From assembly GCA_009838195.1 (NCBI GenBank), contig VXSC01000011.1, positions 1 to 64,000 of the forward strand: a stretch of 64,000 nucleotides of DNA, read 5' to 3'. This stretch comes from Rhodothermaceae bacterium. Its GTDB lineage: Bacteria; Bacteroidota; Rhodothermia; Rhodothermales; Bin80. Below are positions 47,015 to 57,077 of the stretch, one piece after another. Position numbers and translations under genes: made by a program. Below the pieces are notes generated by a model, which saw nothing but the letters and a program-made list of their open reading frames with translations, was not told where the DNA came from and made no database searches. Each line of letters begins with the position of its first letter. The first letter of the stretch is position 1.

Positions 47015-48361
47015 ATGGATAAGCGTACATTCTTAAAGACTTCCTCTGCTCTTGTGTTGGGCTCTATGCTTGCACCCCTCGCGGGCTGCAGGCACCAGGA
47101 ATCGCTAGCTCCGCTGCGGACCAACTGGGCCGGAAACCTGACGTATGGCACCAACCGTTTGCTACTTCCGAGATCAATGGAGGAGTTGCAGGACATGGTA
47201 CGCAACCATCATAGCGTACGTCCGCTGGGATCACGGCATTGTTTTAACTCAATTGCCGACAGCTCCGAGGCGCAGTTGTCGCTGAGCGCAATGCCGCAAA
47301 CGGTCACCTTCGGCTCTGATACTGTAACCGTGCCGGGTGCGATGCGCTACGGTGACCTAGTGCCTCATCTGGATGAGCGGGGCCTAGCACTTCATAACTT
47401 GGCGTCGCTGCCCCATATATCCGTCGCAGGGGCGCTGGCGACCGCAACTCATGGCTCAGGCGTAATCAACGGCAATTTGGCCACCGCCGCAGTTGGACTG
47501 GAACTGGTTGTAGCTTCGGGAGAGCAGATTACGATCACCCCAAAGGATGATTTACTGTTCAGGGCCGCTGTTGTTGGCCTGGGGTGCTTTGGGATGGTCA
47601 CATCCGTTACGCTCAAGGTGGAGCCCATTTATGATATGGTGCAGCATGTTTACTTGAATTTGCCCCTGACCTCTATGGATACGCAATTCGAAACCATTAT
47701 GAATCTTGGTTACAGTGTGAGCTTTTTTACCGATTGGCGTACACCGGAATCTACACAGATCTGGATTAAGCGACGTATAACAGATGAGCTGACAGACCTG
47801 CCCACCGAGTTGTATGGGGCAAGACTGGCAGATCGTAACGTGCACCCGGTATTGGCTCTATCCGCTGAGGCTTGCACAGAGCAGATGGGCGTACCGGGTG
47901 CTTGGCATGCACGGCTGCCTCATTTCAAGATGGACTTCACGCCCAGCAGTGGAGAAGAGCTCCAGAGCGAGTTTTTCGTTGACCGGCAACATGCGCCAGA
48001 AGTAATTGGCGTGTTGCGCGATATGGCCGATCAGCTTAATCCGTTGTTGATGATCAGTGAGGTGCGTACGATTGCGGCGGACAATTTATTGATGAGTACT
48101 GCCAGCGGCCGTGATTCGGTGGCATTTCACTTTACCTGGCATCAAGACTGGGAAGCTTTGCAAGCGGTACTTCCAGTACTGGAGGCACGTCTGGCACCAT
48201 TTGAGCCTCGGCCACATTGGGGTAAGAATTTTCTGATGACTGCTGAAGAACTCCGATCCCGCTATCCGGGACATACTCAATTCCAGGAGCTAGTCCTGAC
48301 TCATGATCCGGAAGGCAAATTCCGCAATGACTTTATAAACGAAAAAGTCATACGCGGGTAG
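47015..48361 (+). CDS. FAD-linked alditol oxidase-like lipoprotein
   Basis: A 448-residue flavoprotein of the VAO family that resembles actinobacterial alditol/xylitol oxidase (AldO) along its length: NWAGNLTYGT, PLGSRHCFN, NLASLPHISVAGALATATHGSG, shown in part, SVSFFTDWR, HPV, TEQMGVPGAWHARLPHF and RPHWGKNF. The His in GSRHCFN is the residue that links FAD covalently in AldO. Unlike the cytoplasmic Streptomyces enzyme, this one begins KRTFLKTSS and has a lipobox LAGC (Cys25), so a Tat-like export and lipid anchor are likely. It would oxidise polyols such as xylitol or sorbitol to aldoses with O2 or another acceptor. Confidence 0.85.
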   Translation: MDKRTFLKTSSALVLGSMLAPLAGCRHQESLAPLRTNWAGNLTYGTNRLLLPRSMEELQDMVRNHHSVRPLGSRHCFNSIADSSEAQLSLSAMPQTVTFGSDTVTVPGAMRYGDLVPHLDERGLALHNLASLPHISVAGALATATHGSGVINGNLATAAVGLELVVASGEQITITPKDDLLFRAAVVGLGCFGMVTSVTLKVEPIYDMVQHVYLNLPLTSMDTQFETIMNLGYSVSFFTDWRTPESTQIWIKRRITDELTDLPTELYGARLADRNVHPVLALSAEACTEQMGVPGAWHARLPHFKMDFTPSSGEELQSEFFVDRQHAPEVIGVLRDMADQLNPLLMISEVRTIAADNLLMSTASGRDSVAFHFTWHQDWEALQAVLPVLEARLAPFEPRPHWGKNFLMTAEELRSRYPGHTQFQELVLTHDPEGKFRNDFINEKVIRG

Positions 48362-48432
48362 GAAGGGTCCGTGCGGGCAGATGCCGCTTGGCCAGCACCC
48401 GGAACACGACTGATGAAAACACCAAAAAGAAT

Positions 48433-48453
48433 TTAAGTGCTTCGTGCACTTAA
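48433..48453 (+). other. Hairpin in the leader of the lysC-lysA fusion gene
   Basis: A perfect 8-bp stem, TTAAGTGC (48433-48440) with GCACTTAA (48446-48453), closes a TTCGT loop. It is not followed by a T-tract, so it is not an intrinsic terminator. It lies 36 bases before the likely GTG start and overlaps a less likely upstream GTG (48444). It could affect translation or mRNA stability. Confidence 0.4.
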
Positions 48454-48488
48454 GAGCATATCATCCCCAATTAATAACCTGCTGTAAA

Positions 48489-51050
48489 GTGAGTCCCTGG
48501 GTCGTACTTAAGTTCGGTGGCACAAGTGTCTCCTCAAGAGAGAGCTGGGATACGATCGCTCGCATTATCCGGGCGCGCCGGGCAGATGGAGAGCGGGTAT
48601 GCGTGGTGTGCTCGGCAGCCTCGGGCACCTCACGCGCACTGGAAGGATTGATTGATGCGGCCCTGCACGGAAACTACGAAGAGCCTCTGACAGCTATCGG
48701 TAAACGACATCTCGCACTGGCACACCAGCTCGGACTTGATGGCGAAGTGCTGCTTCAGGAATTACTTCAGGAATTGGAACGGCTTGCCTATGGAGCTTCG
48801 CTGACCCGTGATGTCGGACCGCCCCTGCATGCACGGATTTTATCAATGGGTGAGCTCATGCTCACCACATTGGGGACTGCATTCCTCAAAACGCAGGATT
48901 TTCAAATCCACTGGATGGATGCACGTACAATCCTGAAATCCGAACCCATCCCGCGCATTCCTCCTCATGAAGAGTTTCTGTCTGCTCAATGCAACCATGA
49001 TCCAGATCCTGAACTCCAGCAGGTTGATGCAGACATCTTCATCACACAGGGCTTTATTGCCAGTGATGCACAGGATCGGACCGTATTGACCGGATGGGGA
49101 GGTTCTGATACATCGGCCGCCTACTTTGCAAGTAAGCTGGAAGCCATACGACTGGAGATTTGGACCGATGTCCCGGGCATGTTCACTGCCAACCCAGGGC
49201 ACGTTCCGGGTGCACGCCTATTGAAACAACTTGAATACAGTGAAGCCCAGGAGCTTGCCAGCTCTGGGGCCGAAGTCCTTCATCCGCGCTGTATTGAGCC
49301 GCTGCGTCCTCAAAAAATCCCTCTCCATGTGCGTTCGACGGCAAACCCCGATCTGGATGGAACTGTAATCAGTGCAGAGACACATAGCTATGGTGCCCAA
49401 GTTAAGGCTATTGCCGCATGCACTGATCTGATCCTCATTGCCGTTGAAACTCCACGTATGTGGCACTCCGTTGGGTTTCTGGCAAAGATTTGTACAGCAT
49501 TTGAGCGGCATGGCCTTTCAATTGGAATGGTCGCCACCTCAGAAACAAACGTGACCCTTTCCATTGATCCGGTCTATGGGTTTTCCCTCGAGGAATCTGT
49601 GATTGAAGCACTGCTGGCCGATTTGAATGAGTTCTGTCAGGCAAAATGTATCAACGGATGCGCTGCGGTCAGCATGGTCGGGCAGAATATCCGCAGTGTT
49701 CTGCACGAACTGGGCCCTGCACTTGAGGTCCTGGATGAGCAAAAAATTTACCTGGTAACACAGGCCGCCAGTGACTTGAATTTCACCTTCGTCGTTGACA
49801 ACCTGCATGCACAGCGGCTGACCAATAAGCTACACAGCCAGATCTTTAGCCAAATTGGGCCAGATGATCTCTTCGGAGCCACCTATCGTGAGTTATTCGA
49901 CGCACCAGACATCTCATTACCGACATCCTGGTGGAAAACGCGGCGCGATCAGCTACTCGAATTAGCGGCTGAGTCATCTCCCTGTTACGTATATGATCGG
50001 GAGAGCTTAGATCATACCATATCCCACATGCAGACCCTCCAAAGCGCTGACCGATCCTTTTATGCCATGAAGGCATGCTGGAATCCAGAAGTGCTACAAG
50101 TAATTTATGAACATGGGATTGGCTTCGAATGTGTATCCCCAGGGGAGTTGCATTATATCAGGCATCTTTTCCCTGATATTGATCCTGACCGAATTCTCTT
50201 TACCCCCAACTTCGTCCCCAAAGAAGAATTTTCGCTGGGATATGAGTTGGCTGGTCATGTGACGGTCGGCAATGTGAGGGCCCTCGAACTTTGGCCGGAA
50301 GTCTTTCGGGATCGTGCGGTGATCCTCCGGGTCGATCCGGGGCATGGTCGCGGGCATCACAAGTATGTACGTACAGCCGGATCTGCATCAAAATTTGGGA
50401 TTGCTCCAGAAGATCTGCCTTTGCTTCAGAACATTGCGAAAGAGCATAACATTCAGATTACAGGCCTGCATGCGCATGTGGGCAGTGGCATCTTGACGCC
50501 AGACACATGGAGCTCTATCGCGTATGCTCTGGCTTCAATCGCAGAAAAATTCCCCCACGTTACCCACTTGAATGTCGGCGGAGGGTTTGGGGTACCAGAA
50601 AAGCCAGGAGCAATCCCACTGAACCTGACAGTCCTAGAAGAGAGCCTGCAGCAATTCCGTGAAACCTACTCCCAATTTGAACTGTGGATCGAGCCAGGGA
50701 GATACCTTGTTGCAGGGAGCGGTGTACTTTTAGTACGTGTCACACAGGTTAAGCGTAAAGGATCGACATACTACATCGGGGTGGAAACTGGAATGAACTC
50801 TTTGATCCGTCCCGCACTCTACGGATCGTATCACAGTATTGTTAACCTGAGCAAACTGGGTGAAACTCCAAGCATGACGGCAGATATCGTTGGACCTATT
50901 TGTGAAACCGGCGACATCCTGGGACGCGCACGCAGACTTCCCGAGACGAAAGAAGGTGATATCCTGCTGATCACGACGACCGGCGCGTATGGCCGGGTGA
51001 TGTCGTCGAGCTATAATATGCGCGACCCGGCGGCCGAAGTGGTCATCTAG
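48489..51050 (+). CDS. Bifunctional aspartate kinase / diaminopimelate decarboxylase
   Basis: A fusion of the first and last enzymes of the lysine branch (LysC-LysA), 853 residues from GTG 48489. Residues 1-about 290 are aspartokinase (VLKFGGTSVSS, TGWGGSDTSAAYFA, WTDVPGMFTANP). Residues about 300-440 are ACT regulatory domains. Residues about 465-853 are the PLP enzyme with the Schiff-base Lys in FYAMKACWN, HAHVGSGI, LNVGGGFG, EPGRYLVAGSG and CETGDIL. Such fusions are known in Xanthomonadaceae and some other groups. An upstream GTG at 48444 would add 15 residues that lie in a hairpin, so I reject it. The fusion probably lets lysine or DAP demand control both ends of the route. Confidence 0.93.
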   Translation: MSPWVVLKFGGTSVSSRESWDTIARIIRARRADGERVCVVCSAASGTSRALEGLIDAALHGNYEEPLTAIGKRHLALAHQLGLDGEVLLQELLQELERLAYGASLTRDVGPPLHARILSMGELMLTTLGTAFLKTQDFQIHWMDARTILKSEPIPRIPPHEEFLSAQCNHDPDPELQQVDADIFITQGFIASDAQDRTVLTGWGGSDTSAAYFASKLEAIRLEIWTDVPGMFTANPGHVPGARLLKQLEYSEAQELASSGAEVLHPRCIEPLRPQKIPLHVRSTANPDLDGTVISAETHSYGAQVKAIAACTDLILIAVETPRMWHSVGFLAKICTAFERHGLSIGMVATSETNVTLSIDPVYGFSLEESVIEALLADLNEFCQAKCINGCAAVSMVGQNIRSVLHELGPALEVLDEQKIYLVTQAASDLNFTFVVDNLHAQRLTNKLHSQIFSQIGPDDLFGATYRELFDAPDISLPTSWWKTRRDQLLELAAESSPCYVYDRESLDHTISHMQTLQSADRSFYAMKACWNPEVLQVIYEHGIGFECVSPGELHYIRHLFPDIDPDRILFTPNFVPKEEFSLGYELAGHVTVGNVRALELWPEVFRDRAVILRVDPGHGRGHHKYVRTAGSASKFGIAPEDLPLLQNIAKEHNIQITGLHAHVGSGILTPDTWSSIAYALASIAEKFPHVTHLNVGGGFGVPEKPGAIPLNLTVLEESLQQFRETYSQFELWIEPGRYLVAGSGVLLVRVTQVKRKGSTYYIGVETGMNSLIRPALYGSYHSIVNLSKLGETPSMTADIVGPICETGDILGRARRLPETKEGDILLITTTGAYGRVMSSSYNMRDPAAEVVI

Positions 51051-51865
51051 TGCTGGTGGAATTTATGTCCACAGTACTTGCAGAATTCAGACCCTTTCTC
51101 CAGCCTCGTCTCCCGGCAGCGTACGCACGGAGTCGTTCGTTTGAAATGGCGATGCGATAAGCTAATGGACATCACAATAATCGCATAGCCGATCACCATT
51201 ACCATCGCCGCAACGAACTTCCCCAAAGGTGTCTGAGGAGAAATATCTCCGTACCCAACCGTGGTCAATGTTACCACCGCCCAGTACATGCTCAGGGGAA
51301 TGCTGGCAAATCCATTTTCGGGCCCCTCAATCAGATAGATCATTGAGCCCAGGGTGGTGACAAGCAGCGACAGTGCGAGTACGAACACCCATATTCGCTG
51401 CCAACTCTCCTGGAGCAGATAGAGTAAGTGAAGCCCGGCTCTGGTGTACTGTACCAGTTTTAGAACACGAAATACCCGCAACAGGCGAAGAATTCGGATA
51501 ACAATCAATGCCTGGGCACCGGGAAGTAACAGGCTCACGTACGTTGGAATCACTGCAATCAGGTCCACTACCCCAAAAAAGCTGCGAGCATACCCCAAGG
51601 GATTCCGGGAACAGTACAACCGTAGGACGTACTCAACGGTGAAGACCACCGTAAAGAACCACTCCAAGCCGATTAGTAGAGTCCCGTGGACAGCTCTTAC
51701 CTGATCAATACTCTCCAGCATGACCGCAACCACACTGGCGACAATGATAATAAAGAGCGCAATATCGCTTCCCCGTCCCAGCGGAGTCGTAGATTCAAAC
51801 AGAATCTTGTTGAGCAACTCGCGCCGTGAGCCCCATGAAGTCTGATGTTCTTTATGCTCTTCCAC
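51047..51865 (-). CDS. Voltage-gated potassium-type ion channel with C-terminal zinc ribbon
   Basis: A 272-residue six-helix channel (ion_trans family) from a GTG start. Helices S1-S4 occupy about 30-145, with the voltage-sensor-like RILRLLRVFRVLKLVQ carrying Arg/Lys every third residue. The pore loop has TVGYGDISP, a K+ selectivity filter, flanked by S5 and S6. The last 35 residues are unusual: CVRC at about 248 and CKYC about 17 residues later form a zinc-ribbon-like knuckle ending HKFHQH. It is the last gene of a reverse operon and its start overlaps the Nudix gene by 14 bases. Its 3' end overlaps the convergent lysC-lysA stop. Confidence 0.9.
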   Translation of the reverse strand: MEEHKEHQTSWGSRRELLNKILFESTTPLGRGSDIALFIIIVASVVAVMLESIDQVRAVHGTLLIGLEWFFTVVFTVEYVLRLYCSRNPLGYARSFFGVVDLIAVIPTYVSLLLPGAQALIVIRILRLLRVFRVLKLVQYTRAGLHLLYLLQESWQRIWVFVLALSLLVTTLGSMIYLIEGPENGFASIPLSMYWAVVTLTTVGYGDISPQTPLGKFVAAMVMVIGYAIIVMSISLSHRHFKRTTPCVRCRETRLEKGSEFCKYCGHKFHQH

Positions 51866-52403
51866 TTTTTAGATACAAGTCGTAGTAGTGAAGTGCTGCT
51901 ATAATAATACCATGACGCAGTGTTTCATCGGCAATCAGCTTCGGGATCATGGATTGATCAATCAGAACAGGATCTATCTCCTCTGCTGAATCAAGTTCTT
52001 GCTGTCCCTGAGGGACTGCATCACTGGCCAGAAAAAAATGGCACCGGTTTGTGAGGATCGCGGGGTTCGGAGACATAGAGCCCAGCCGAATGAGTGTCTT
52101 GGCTGCATAGCCGGTTTCTTCACGCAGTTCACGGGCAGCTGCCTCCTCGGGGAGTTCACCCTGATCTACGATCCCTCCGGGCAACTCTAGTTCAACGGCC
52201 GAAGTCCCCGGCCGCCACTGCCGGATACAAACAAACTTACCCTCTGGAGTTACAGGAACGATCGTGACCCAGTCAGAGGCCTCCAGTACATAAAACGAAT
52301 GGACTTGGCCGGTTCGTGGGGATTCACAATCGTCCTGGCGCACCGTGAACACCTTGAAATCCCCACGATCCTGGCGCTGTTTACACTTCCATGATTGACC
52401 CAT
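51852..52403 (-). CDS. Nudix hydrolase, ADP-ribose pyrophosphatase-like
   Basis: A 183-residue Nudix enzyme. The signature is perfect: G-x5-E-x7-REUxEExGU seen as GIVDQGELPEEAAARELREETGY. Context strands such as VTIVPVTPEGKFVCIRQWRPG (in part) and GSMSPNPAILTNRCHFFLA resemble ADP-ribose/nucleoside diphosphate-sugar pyrophosphatases (NudF-like). It would hydrolyse an NDP-X substrate with Mg2+. It starts one base inside the roxA stop (TAATG), a tight coupling, and overlaps the channel gene by 14 bases. Confidence 0.92.
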   Translation of the reverse strand: MGQSWKCKQRQDRGDFKVFTVRQDDCESPRTGQVHSFYVLEASDWVTIVPVTPEGKFVCIRQWRPGTSAVELELPGGIVDQGELPEEAAARELREETGYAAKTLIRLGSMSPNPAILTNRCHFFLASDAVPQGQQELDSAEEIDPVLIDQSMIPKLIADETLRHGIIIAALHYYDLYLKSGRA

Positions 52404-53587
52404 TAATTCGATCCTTCTACCCTGATCAGGACCATAGAATCAAGTAAAAGCTGCATGAGTTCCAGAGCCTCCTGATCCCAAAGATAGGACTTGAGGGAGT
52501 CAAAATTGAGTATCTCTGTTCCGGTTAACAATTGTGCAAATGGTTTCGACTCGAGCTTTAGCTGGCATTCAATTCCAAGCGCATAGATCCGAATACAGTC
52601 ATCAAATTCCCGATAGACCATGCACGACGGAGTAAGCCGCACATACGTACTACCTTGCCGAAGATCATCCGGAATCTCTTCAGCAGAGGGTACCGGATCC
52701 TTCGCCATTCCAGGCCAGTTTTCCCGAACGGGATGCGTCATCGCACTACAAAAGACTCGTGCAAGACTTTCCCGATCCTCCGCAAGCCGTCGCATTTCGT
52801 TCTGAAACCAGTCCAGAGGCGTGTCGCTGACTCGACCAGGATCGCCCGTTCGCAGCTCAACCGGATCCACAAAATTGCTTGGGGTATGGATATGTCCAAC
52901 CCCTTCTGTCATTTCTGAGAAAGCCGTCTGCAACATACCCGTTTCGGGAGCCTTGAATCCGATACTTGCCGTGATGCATGTCCCTTCAGCAATCCCCCAA
53001 TGAGGGAGTTTAGGTGGCAAATAGAGCATATCTCCTGGCTTGGCAACGAATTCCTGATCTGGATGAAGCTCTTTCAGGAGTTGCATTGATGCATCCTCTC
53101 TCATCGGACGATCATCAGTGACCGGAGAATTTTCGATTTTCCAGCGCCGCTCACCGCTGAGCTGAATAAGAAAGACGTCGTAACTGTCCACATGGGGACC
53201 TACGCTCCCTCCTGGAGCCGCGTAGCTCAGCTGAACATCATCCAGACGCCAGTTGGGGATAAACCGAAATAATTCGAGCAGCTGGCGCATCTGATCAAGT
53301 TCCCGCTCTGTATCCTGCACCAGTAATGTCCAGTATGAGAGCTCCTCGAAACTCTCAAGCTCTTCCCATTCAAATGGTCCGGTAAATAATTCCCATGACT
53401 GGTCCACGGTGTCTTCTTCAATCAGGCGCGAATCGAATTCAGCGCTGACCGCCATCCGAAATATGTCACTCCGAGTAATATCGAAACTGGATTTTTCAAA
53501 CGCATCCTGCAGGATCAGCGGACGTTTCTGCCAATAATCACGCATAAAGACGTCAAGGGAGTACTGTCCGCGGAAAGGACGAACCAT
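52403..53587 (-). CDS. roxA: RoxA-like ribosomal oxygenase (uL16 arginine hydroxylase family)
   Basis: A 394-residue JmjC-cupin oxygenase. DYWQKRPLILQDAF at the N-terminus and PGGSVGPHVDSYDVFLIQ with the iron ligands His and Asp (HVD), then LPPKLPHWGIAEG with the distal His, are typical of the YcfD/RoxA group, which uses iron, O2 and 2-oxoglutarate to hydroxylate Arg81 of ribosomal protein uL16 in E. coli. The C-terminal winged-helix region is present (residues about 330-394). Size fits the family. Its ATG overlaps the stop of the small zinc-ribbon gene upstream by one base. The target in this organism is inferred from the family. Confidence 0.88.
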   Translation of the reverse strand: MVRPFRGQYSLDVFMRDYWQKRPLILQDAFEKSSFDITRSDIFRMAVSAEFDSRLIEEDTVDQSWELFTGPFEWEELESFEELSYWTLLVQDTERELDQMRQLLELFRFIPNWRLDDVQLSYAAPGGSVGPHVDSYDVFLIQLSGERRWKIENSPVTDDRPMREDASMQLLKELHPDQEFVAKPGDMLYLPPKLPHWGIAEGTCITASIGFKAPETGMLQTAFSEMTEGVGHIHTPSNFVDPVELRTGDPGRVSDTPLDWFQNEMRRLAEDRESLARVFCSAMTHPVRENWPGMAKDPVPSAEEIPDDLRQGSTYVRLTPSCMVYREFDDCIRIYALGIECQLKLESKPFAQLLTGTEILNFDSLKSYLWDQEALELMQLLLDSMVLIRVEGSN

Positions 53588-53754
53588 CAGAAGATCAGTT
53601 TTATGAGTTCGAATAAAGGCCAGATTAAAAGCAATGCCATTATCCAGGCCATGGCCGTTCGGCTGCGGGTCTGACGCGGAAATTCATAGGCGCAATACGG
53701 ACATACGTCCAGGGTGCGGTCCACTTCCAGGGCACATGATGGGCATTCTTGCAT
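53587..53754 (-). CDS. Small zinc-ribbon, single-helix membrane protein (55 aa), coupled to roxA
   Basis: This short frame starts at an ATG (53754) and reads to a TGA whose last base is shared with the roxA ATG (TGATG at 53587). The product has CPSC at residues 4-7 and CPYC at 18-21, a four-Cys zinc-ribbon knuckle 10 residues apart, followed by a basic stretch RQTRSRT (27-33) and one hydrophobic helix (about 34-54) ending LIF. The gene is plausible because its motif, membrane segment and one-base overlap agree, and because the channel at the other end of the operon also carries a zinc ribbon. No known family is claimed. No Shine-Dalgarno sequence is obvious. Confidence 0.7.
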   Translation of the reverse strand: MQECPSCALEVDRTLDVCPYCAYEFPRQTRSRTAMAWIMALLLIWPLFELIKLIF

Positions 53755-53826
53755 TGGTCGCAGACAAAGTTCGACCTATCAACGCGCCGCATCCCAAATA
53801 CGTTCAATGGAACAGCTTTCTGTTTT

Positions 53827-54459
53827 ATGCTTACACGCCGAGCTAGCACAAAATTATTTTTCTCAGTGCTCCTATACACTCCCATAGCGCTCCCGATTGT
53901 AGACGCTTCGGCATCTGTCGAAATTGTCATTGCAACGACTGACCATTTTCGGTTCGCGGACGAAATCTGTCACCTAATCAAAACGGCAGCAGCGCAACGA
54001 GGTACCGGCATTGCCGAACGTGCCCCCGAATATATTCGCACCAAAATGGAAGAGGGAAAGGCCGTAATTGCACTCGGTACACATGATCAGGTGGCTGGTT
54101 TCTGCTACATTGAAACATGGGACCACGGGAAGTACGCGGTCAACTCGGGGCTCATTATCTCTCCTGCTTTTCGTAGGCAGGGGCTTGCACGCCGGATCAA
54201 GCGCCGGGCGTTTGAGCTTTCAAGAACTCTCTACCCCGAAGCCAAACTGTTCGGCATTACGACCAGTCTTGCTGTGATGAAAATCAACTCTGAGCTTGGC
54301 TACAAGCCGGTAACATTCAGTGAGCTCACGGATGATGATGAGTTCTGGCAGGGATGTCAGAGCTGCCCCAACTATGATGTGCTGACACGAATGAAGCGAA
54401 AAATGTGTCTCTGCACAGGTATGCTCTACGATCCGGGAGAGACTCCTTCCTCAGAATAG
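53827..54459 (+). CDS. GNAT N-acetyltransferase of the Bacteroidota arginine-locus type
   Basis: A 210-residue acetyltransferase. The GNAT core begins with EIVIATTDHFRFADEI and has the acetyl-CoA loop SPAFRRQGLARRIKR. The C-terminus GCQSCPNYDVLTR and MCLCTGMLYDP is typical of a GNAT protein encoded at the head of arginine operons in Bacteroidota, where it is thought to make N-acetylglutamate. No arg gene is adjacent here. The start is uncertain: the only ATG ahead of the core is at 53827, and the leader it implies is hydrophobic and may be untranslated. The gene is divergent from the zinc-ribbon operon and 8 bases upstream of priA. Confidence 0.78.
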   Translation: MLTRRASTKLFFSVLLYTPIALPIVDASASVEIVIATTDHFRFADEICHLIKTAAAQRGTGIAERAPEYIRTKMEEGKAVIALGTHDQVAGFCYIETWDHGKYAVNSGLIISPAFRRQGLARRIKRRAFELSRTLYPEAKLFGITTSLAVMKINSELGYKPVTFSELTDDDEFWQGCQSCPNYDVLTRMKRKMCLCTGMLYDPGETPSSE

Positions 54460-54467
54460 CGCCGAAA

Positions 54468-56936
54468 ATGTCGCGCGCCATTGGTGTTGCCTTGCCGATT
54501 CCTGTGGACAAGGTATATGCCTATGAGCTACCCGGTGAGCTTGAGGAATCCGTACAGATAGGATCCCTGGTCCTGGTTCCAGTGCGTAACCGTACCTATA
54601 CAGGGGTTGTTACGGAACTGGACGTACAAGTCCGTGAAGGCATAAGACTCCGAACCGTGCGTGCCGCCGTGAGTCATGAACCCTTATTTGACCCAGAACT
54701 CCTTCAACTTACCCGCTGGATATCACGGTACTATGTTTGTGCCTGGGGAGAAGTACTCAGCGCAGCACTCCCGGCGGGGATGCAGACAAAAGAGCGGATC
54801 GTGTACTATCTGGCTTCCGAGTCAGACCTCCACTGGGTGGGAATTTCTCCTGAACTGCAAGTGCACCTGATGAAGCATCGCCGAACGACTCCTGCCAAGC
54901 TGAAACGCGTTGGCCTTCGTATTTCCGAACAGGAGATCATCAGAGCGGAATCTCAGGGAGCGCTTCGGAAAACCGTCGAACTCCAAGAACCAACGGTGGG
55001 CATGAAGACCGGAGAGTTTATCTCTCTTGCGCCCGCATTTCGCTCAGTTGATGCCCTGCGTGACTTGAAGCCGCAGTTTCGGGGAATTAAACAGAAGGAG
55101 GTCATTGACCAGCTCATCTCTTCTATTGAACCCGGCCAGTATGAGATTTCGCTGCCGGAGATTCGGAAGGCTTGTAGTGCAAGTCGGCAAACGGTTCGAT
55201 CCCTTGAAAAGCGGGGAATTTTTTCAATCATCGAAAAGCAGGTATTCCGGATCCCGGAATGGATGCGCTCAAAAGCAACCCCGTCTAGCAAAGCCCCAAA
55301 TTTTCATCCATTTCAGGCCGTGGCTGCGAAGGCACTTCAGGATGCAGTCAAATCAAAAATCTATAAAACTTTCGCGCTTCATGGCGTGACCGGGAGCGGG
55401 AAAACGGAGGTCTATCTATCCGCACTGGAAACCTCGCTCTCTCTTGGCAGGACAGCCATCGTACTTGTACCTGAAATCTCCCTCACCCCGCAAACAGTAC
55501 ATCGCTTTCGGGCCCGCTTTGGAGATACCGTTGCAGTTCTCCATTCCCGCATGGCGCAGGGAGAGCGTCATGATGTCTGGCAACAAACTCGTGCGGGCCG
55601 ATATCGTGTGGTCATAGGACCAAGGTCTGCGATCCTAGCCCCGTTAAAAAATCTTGGGCTCATCATTGTAGATGAAGAGCACGACGGCTCCTATAAGCAG
55701 AGAGAAACTGCTCCCCGATACCATGCCAGAGATGTTGCCGTCATGCGTGCGACGATGGCAAAATGCACCTGTGTATTGGGTTCTGCAACCCTATCACTGG
55801 AGACCCTGGTGAACGCACAGCAGGGCAAGTATACGCTCTTGTCTATGCCAGAGCGTGCTCCGACGAAGGACCGATCCGCCGCTTCTCTTCCTGCAATTCG
55901 AATCATTGATCTTTGCCATGAACGCGAAGAAAATGGGCTGAGTGGCCCCTTGTCCACCCCTCTGCTTGAAGCGATTGAATCTCGCCTGGAACGAAAAGAG
56001 CAGGTGATTCTTCTACAAAACCGCCGTGGATATGCACCCATCCTAGAGTGTCAGAGCTGTGGTTTTGTGCCGCAGTGCATCGCCTGCAGTGTATCGATGA
56101 CTTATCACCAGGGAGAGAATCGGCTCCGGTGTCATTACTGCGGATACGTGCGTAACCTTCCAGATGATTGTCCCAAATGCGAAACACCAGCATTTGCACC
56201 GCTTGGCAGCGGGACTCAGCGCGTTTCCGAGGAACTTGGCGAATTGTTTCGAACGGCCAGAATTCTTCGAATGGACCGTGACAGCACTCGAACCAAGGAT
56301 GCTCACCACGAAATCCTTAGCATTTTCGCAGAGGGTGGGGCAGATATTCTGATTGGCACGCAAATGGTTGCCAAGGGGCTCGACTTCGGCCGAGTGACAC
56401 TGGTGGGCGTTATCAGCTGTGATCTAGGGCTTCGGCTGCCTGATTTTCGGAGTGAGGAACGAACCTTTCAACTGCTTATGCAGGTTGCGGGGAGAGCAGG
56501 TAGAGCAGACCTGCCTGGAGAGGTCTTACTCCAGACGCGACGCCCATCCCACCCGATCTTTTCCTTCCTGCAGGCGCATGACTTTCATGGCTACGCTCAG
56601 ATTCTTGCGCAGCACCGGCAAAAATTGAACTACCCCCCATTTGGCCGCATCGTCGGGATCCAAGTCCGGGGTGCACCACAGCCGGCGGTCGCGGACCTTG
56701 CAAATGAATGGAAGACCCTGCTGCTTGATCAGCTGCCCTCTACCGTTTCAGTATTGGGCCCGGAGCAGCCGTACATCAAACGCGTGGAGCATCAGTACCG
56801 CTATTTTCTCATCATCAAGGCACCAAAGACTTATCACTCTCTTCAAGAAGACATCCGTTCGATCCTCCGAATGGCTCCCTCAACCGGGCGTGAACTTCAT
56901 GTATCCGTCAATGTGGACGGACTTGAGCAGGCGTGA
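54468..56936 (+). CDS. priA: Primosomal protein N' (replication restart helicase PriA)
   Basis: An 822-residue superfamily-2 helicase that reloads the replisome at collapsed forks. It has the N-terminal 3'-DNA-binding domain (VALPIPVDKVYAYELP), Walker A HGVTGSGKTEVYL, the DEEHD box, and a zinc-binding insertion of eight Cys (CQSCGFVPQCIAC, then CHYCG and CPKC). Motifs V and VI are GTQMVAKGLDF and QVAGRAGRA. I start at ATG 54468 because family proteins begin near VALPIPVD; an in-frame start at 54405 would lie inside the GNAT gene. The gene ends 21 bases before the SRP RNA. Confidence 0.95.
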   Translation: MSRAIGVALPIPVDKVYAYELPGELEESVQIGSLVLVPVRNRTYTGVVTELDVQVREGIRLRTVRAAVSHEPLFDPELLQLTRWISRYYVCAWGEVLSAALPAGMQTKERIVYYLASESDLHWVGISPELQVHLMKHRRTTPAKLKRVGLRISEQEIIRAESQGALRKTVELQEPTVGMKTGEFISLAPAFRSVDALRDLKPQFRGIKQKEVIDQLISSIEPGQYEISLPEIRKACSASRQTVRSLEKRGIFSIIEKQVFRIPEWMRSKATPSSKAPNFHPFQAVAAKALQDAVKSKIYKTFALHGVTGSGKTEVYLSALETSLSLGRTAIVLVPEISLTPQTVHRFRARFGDTVAVLHSRMAQGERHDVWQQTRAGRYRVVIGPRSAILAPLKNLGLIIVDEEHDGSYKQRETAPRYHARDVAVMRATMAKCTCVLGSATLSLETLVNAQQGKYTLLSMPERAPTKDRSAASLPAIRIIDLCHEREENGLSGPLSTPLLEAIESRLERKEQVILLQNRRGYAPILECQSCGFVPQCIACSVSMTYHQGENRLRCHYCGYVRNLPDDCPKCETPAFAPLGSGTQRVSEELGELFRTARILRMDRDSTRTKDAHHEILSIFAEGGADILIGTQMVAKGLDFGRVTLVGVISCDLGLRLPDFRSEERTFQLLMQVAGRAGRADLPGEVLLQTRRPSHPIFSFLQAHDFHGYAQILAQHRQKLNYPPFGRIVGIQVRGAPQPAVADLANEWKTLLLDQLPSTVSVLGPEQPYIKRVEHQYRYFLIIKAPKTYHSLQEDIRSILRMAPSTGRELHVSVNVDGLEQA

Positions 56937-56957
56937 GTGCGGAACCGTCACTGCATA

Positions 56958-57077
56958 GAAGGGTAGACGGGGCCGAAGGGTGAGTCCCGTACGGTCAGCT
57001 CCCTCTGAACCCCGTCAGGGCCGGAAGGCAGCAGCGGTAGGAGGTCGAAGCGACGCGATGCGGTTAGCTTACCCTTC
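56958..57077 (+). ncRNA. ffs: Bacterial signal recognition particle (4.5S) RNA
   Basis: The segment holds the conserved SRP RNA apical loop: GTCAGGGCCGGAAGG at about 57014 followed by CAGCAGCGG, the Ffh-binding helix 8 with the GGAA tetraloop. The two ends pair: GAAGGGTA (56958-56965) with TACCCTTC (57070-57077), and inner complementary segments allow one long hairpin of about 120 bases. This is the small SRP type. It recruits Ffh to nascent membrane proteins. It lies between priA and yajC; the SRP and YajC act in the same export route, which may explain their closeness. Ends are estimated from pairing. Confidence 0.93.

Follow-up and report, generated by a model that had tools for sequence, protein, structure and literature searches.

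The locus studied here raises two questions: whether a 55-residue frame that opens directly ahead of roxA is a gene, and, if so, what its product has to do with RoxA. The window is the whole stretch of 64,000 nucleotides that was analysed; it is part of a 3.0-Mb genome assembly, and the named contigs closest to it are Rhodothermales or Rhodothermaceae metagenome bins. An earlier note, made from the DNA letters, had pointed to this minus-strand frame, called zrm below, and described it as encoding CPSC, CPYC, a basic stretch and one membrane helix. All of these were seen in the translation of 53587-53754, minus strand, which is MQECPSCALEVDRTLDVCPYCAYEFPRQTRSRTAMAWIMALLLIWPLFELIKLIF followed by the stop codon. 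The features of the locus are collected in Table 1.

Table 1. Features of the zrm-roxA locus; positions are those of the window.
Feature	Position	Strand	Remarks
zrm	53587..53754	-	Gene for a 55-aa predicted zinc-ribbon, C-tail-anchored membrane protein; ATG start, TGA stop
First knuckle CPSC	53734..53745	-	Residues 4-7 (C4PSC7); Cys and Pro invariant in 45 homologues
Second knuckle CPYC	53692..53703	-	Residues 18-21 (C18PYC21); followed by conserved YEFP
Basic linker RQTRSR	53659..53676	-	Residues 27-32 of the zrm product
Single transmembrane helix (predicted)	53593..53655	-	About residues 34-54, to the C-terminus; hydropathy and AlphaFold2
Shared base	53587..53587	-	Last base of the zrm stop TGA and first base of the roxA ATG
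roxA	52403..53587	-	JmjC/YcfD-type uL16 arginine hydroxylase (predicted); PF08007 7.7e-34, 4csw 4.8e-74
Nudix hydrolase	51852..52403	-	NudE-like, below the NudE cut-off
Voltage-gated K+-type channel	51047..51865	-	C-terminal CxxC...CxxC ribbon

Conservation of the zrm frame

A 55-residue frame is by itself no proof of a gene, because 80 ORFs of 40 aa or longer reach into positions 48000-57000, and it is conservation that decides. Matches to zrm were obtained at E<=1 in 57 of 59 related genomes, and 51 of these matches reached 1e-7 or better; the identity within the genus was 73-91%. Seven columns were invariant in 45 aligned homologues, namely the four Cys, Pro5, Tyr23 and Pro26. The dN/dS ratio (Nei-Gojobori) was 0.04-0.17 in eleven congeneric comparisons, none of them near neutral, and these ratios are rough, since in some comparisons dS is above 1 and thus saturated. 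Compared with genome G005, zrm differed by 17 synonymous and 5 non-synonymous codons. The earlier note had named absence of the Cys pairs or of the frame from relatives, and near-neutral ratios, as signs against a gene; both the Cys pairs and the frame were present in relatives, and the ratios were not neutral. Although short ORFs are numerous in this region, a chance ORF has practically no probability left, since the frame is conserved across the order and further, with invariant Cys and low dN/dS. Judged by this conservation, zrm is a real gene under purifying selection.

Predicted structure and topology of the zrm product

The AlphaFold2 model of the zrm product (mean pLDDT 87.6) consists of a compact small ribbon and a helix at residues 30-54. 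The homologues conserve two CxxC knuckles with about 10 residues between them, which is the pattern of a C4 zinc ribbon with predicted zinc binding. In Pfam, the product reached 28.9 bits against DUF7575 (PF24460), only 0.4 bits above the cut-off of 28.5, and it scored below the cut-off of the other ribbon models. UPF0547 (PF10571) was matched by 41 of the 45 homologues at E<=0.01. Like zrm, these two families and Zn_ribbon_3 (PF13248) have one C-P-x-C...C-P-x-C ribbon of about 25 residues. Their models cover the ribbon only, whereas zrm adds a tail anchor, giving a protein of 50-60 residues, and the link to roxA.

The top Foldseek matches of the model were NZF/RanBP2-type ribbons, on which the predicted zrm ribbon superposes with an rmsd of 1.1-1.3 Å over about 25 residues; none of the matches was significant (best E 0.27), and no sequence relationship with these ribbons was shown. 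Known ribbons of the NZF/RanBP2 type dock proteins such as ubiquitin or Ran. A PDB sequence search with the zrm family profile gave no match below E 0.15, and literature searches for the zrm protein found nothing.

The 45 aligned homologues had 49-58 residues when the count began immediately ahead of the first Cys pair. The best 17-residue hydrophobic window ended 0-9 residues before the C-terminus in all of them, and every one had one or more K/R in the stretch that joins ribbon and helix (mean 2.1). Because basic residues precede the helix, the positive-inside rule favours an N-in/C-out orientation with the ribbon in the cytoplasm. The layout therefore favours a C-tail-anchored protein with a cytoplasmic ribbon, a predicted topology resting on a rule rather than a measurement. 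YqjD and ElaB of E. coli (DUF883) likewise have a small portion in the cytoplasm and are anchored in the membrane by their C-terminus, and a passage of PMC5525287 that cites Yoshida 2012 reports YqjD as ribosome-associated at the inner membrane. They differ from zrm, whose cytoplasmic part is a predicted zinc ribbon and whose product had no DUF883 match in Pfam at E<=1, and the analogy concerns a possible mode of action only.

roxA and the surrounding operon

The roxA product was matched by JmjC_2 (PF08007) with 116 bits, and its translation contains the HVD and PHW motifs, corresponding to the HxD...H iron ligands of that family. The ROXA-like winged helix (PF20514) scored 21.8 bits at a cut-off of 22. 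The match to the R. marinus YcfD structure 4csw identifies roxA, by similarity, as an orthologue-like relative of R. marinus YcfD. That protein is an oxygen-dependent uL16 arginine hydroxylase, which hydroxylates a uL16 peptide as a purified recombinant enzyme (PMC5862935). The target motif VRMGKGKG (RMGKGKG) was present in the uL16 of the window's genome, and equally in congeners without roxA. The likeness to YcfD/RoxA concerns the roxA neighbour only, and the uL16 Arg is also found in genomes that lack roxA.

The genes on the minus strand are tightly packed. The sharing of a base between the zrm stop and the roxA start, which the earlier note had read from the letters, was confirmed; the roxA and Nudix frames have one base in common (52403), and the Nudix and channel frames overlap by 14 bases. 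In all six roxA-bearing congeners compared, the zrm stop and the roxA start overlap as TGATG, TAATG or ATGA. These arrangements suggest translational coupling of zrm and roxA, at least in the window's genus. Several genera of the window's family, and family f6 as well, share the order zrm-roxA-Nudix-channel. The earlier picture of a small membrane protein with a predicted zinc ribbon at the head of a conserved roxA operon was supported. Neither an Rfam search over the operon nor a plasmid search with the operon DNA gave a match. Promoter-like sites (sigma-70 scan, 3 versus 2.8 in shuffled sequence) and terminator-like sites (6 versus 2.9, mostly inside genes) came from scans that are not informative for this phylum.

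Two plus-strand frames border the operon. The listed TTG start of the GNAT frame (53749-54459) overlaps the zrm start; the true start is probably further in, because homology in most relatives begins at about residue 36-54. At 48444-51050, facing the channel gene, lies an 868-aa fusion of an aspartate kinase (ACT domains) with a diaminopimelate/ornithine-type decarboxylase, and a similar gene was seen near roxA in family f15.

Linkage of zrm to roxA

Among the 81 Rhodothermales genomes with listed positions for both genes, zrm lay upstream of roxA, adjacent and on the same strand, in 71, which represent eight families. The genes were apart in the other ten. One of these, G052, has only a divergent JmjC protein, whose lone JmjC_2 match was not found with RoxA as the query. 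In family f3, probably Rhodothermus, both genes were present and far apart. GNAT and priA stand beside zrm in the window's own family only and roxA stays there outside the family too, so the zrm-roxA pair is held tighter than its surroundings. In some families the gap between the two genes is longer than an overlap.

The earlier note had asked whether zrm is always next to roxA, and the answer is no. Besides the ten genomes just mentioned, zrm occurs in about 20 Rhodothermales genomes that have no JmjC_2 gene, among them all three of family f10 and most of f13. JmjC_2 was found in 87 genomes, all of them Rhodothermales; of the 131 genomes of the class outside that order, 74 have zrm and none has roxA. 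Where roxA is absent or elsewhere, the neighbours of zrm vary widely. By these gene positions the linkage is real, and it is not obligatory. In four genomes (G031, G041, G050 and G025), roxA and a ribbon-tailed channel are close together on the same strand though zrm is elsewhere or absent.

The zrm profile matched 178 of the 245 genomes of the class, a count that includes a weak match to another protein in G056. About 103 of 114 Rhodothermales genomes were among them, three of which (G201, G204 and G196) have zrm at positions not listed in the linkage count. Nearly every genome carried a single strong copy. Outside the class, in an even draw from the phylum Bacteroidota, strong matches came from family f39 only, which is probably Cyclobacteriaceae because contigs titled Cyclobacteriaceae carry zrm. 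There were also scattered matches on contigs labelled KSB1 and Verrucomicrobia. As far as this distribution tells, zrm is older and wider than its linkage to roxA.

Loss of roxA in one clade

Four genomes of the window's genus (G004, G007, G008 and G009; L036-L039) lack roxA altogether. In three of them the vacant site still lies between zrm on one side and the Nudix and channel genes on the other, and the gap between zrm and Nudix holds no conserved frame; in G009 the genes downstream are absent from this site as well. The idea that another oxygenase has taken the place of roxA was rejected, since the gap lacks a conserved frame. In a GNAT and PriA tree the four genomes form one clade (support 100/99), which implies a single loss of roxA. 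The zrm dN/dS ratio within this clade was 0.08-0.17. Selection on zrm has thus continued after roxA was lost, and its selected role is therefore independent of RoxA. The uL16 target arginine is kept in the clade, which forms a natural roxA-minus group.

Possible functions of zrm

Our best reading, which we consider about evenly balanced (probability roughly 0.5), is that zrm encodes a minimal tail-anchored zinc-ribbon adaptor at the cytoplasmic face of the inner membrane, coupled to roxA and with a broader role. A single C4 zinc ribbon would be held on the cytoplasmic face by a C-terminal helix ending a few residues from the C-terminus, and its most likely task would be the docking of a protein (or RNA) at the membrane. 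In Rhodothermales, zrm would have joined roxA early, and translational coupling, at least in the window's genus, would let the two proteins be made together. zrm would have a selected function without need of RoxA, and roxA would be a frequent but optional operon mate. Against this adaptor reading, the fold matches are not significant, and the conserved adjacency could indicate a closer tie to RoxA than it allows.

Such a closer tie would exist if the zrm product were a dedicated partner that either regulates RoxA or keeps it, alone or together with ribosomes, at the membrane, and if this were the purpose of the operon. The adjacency with zrm first in 71 of 81 genomes from eight families and the stop/start overlaps in six of six congeners speak for this. 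We nevertheless regard it as unlikely, because zrm occurs without roxA both within Rhodothermales and outside the order, stays under selection in the roxA-less clade and lies far from roxA in f3. Moreover, recombinant R. marinus enzyme, once purified, hydroxylates its uL16 peptide (PMC5862935).

It is also rather unlikely that zrm is a general membrane protein functionally unrelated to RoxA, and that an inherited operon is kept because coupling provides roxA with translation initiation. The overlaps in the congeners, the greater age and breadth of zrm compared with its linkage, and its widely differing neighbours where roxA is absent or elsewhere agree with this explanation. However, the link persists in families with a gap longer than an overlap, so its preservation is not due to strict coupling.

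Translation genes stand near zrm in four contexts. Same-strand neighbours in other lineages, where roxA is not adjacent, include MnmA, an RF-1-domain (ArfB-like) protein and YceD (L063 4243-5355; L108 5173-5580; L067 5984-6511); MnmA acts in tRNA modification and YceD in rRNA accumulation. No translation theme was seen, judged by eye, among the zrm neighbours in Balneolales, and the enrichment is suggestive, a lead only. That zrm keeps ribosomes or translation factors tethered at the inner membrane, with RoxA as one of several linked translation proteins, seems improbable to us; if true, it would provide a bacterial link between ribosome modification and the membrane. In G302 of family f39 (L109), a GNAT-like protein without a Pfam match at E<=1e-4 is encoded about 1.8 kb downstream of zrm, ahead of arginine-biosynthesis-like genes.

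The earlier note had further proposed a linked sensing or regulatory unit, in which two membrane proteins with zinc knuckles surround a ribosomal oxygenase and a Nudix enzyme. The voltage-gated channel at the other end of the operon does carry its own CxxC...CxxC tail, and its C-terminus is CVRCRETRLEKGSEFCKYCGHKF. Across Bacteroidota, homologous channels could be read in 26 cases, and 24 of these had the same kind of tail; many tail-bearing channels sit in genomes without zrm or roxA. On this comparison the zinc tail is a generic feature of the channel family, so the argument from two zinc knuckles to one unit fails; the channel ribbon as a co-evolved partner of zrm was rejected on the same count. 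The kept four-gene order and the persistence of a roxA-channel neighbourhood without adjacent zrm in f3 and f11 would fit a sensing unit. However, the order is mostly limited to one family, neither a signalling domain (Pfam) nor an RNA family element (Rfam) was found, and zrm remains under purifying selection where roxA has been lost. We therefore find this proposal very improbable.

In conclusion, the roxA-less congeners are a clean natural experiment on guilt by association: one clade lost the operon partner and kept zrm. Our results point to zrm as an uncharacterised yet strongly conserved family of small membrane proteins of Rhodothermia, in a size class that is often missed by annotation.
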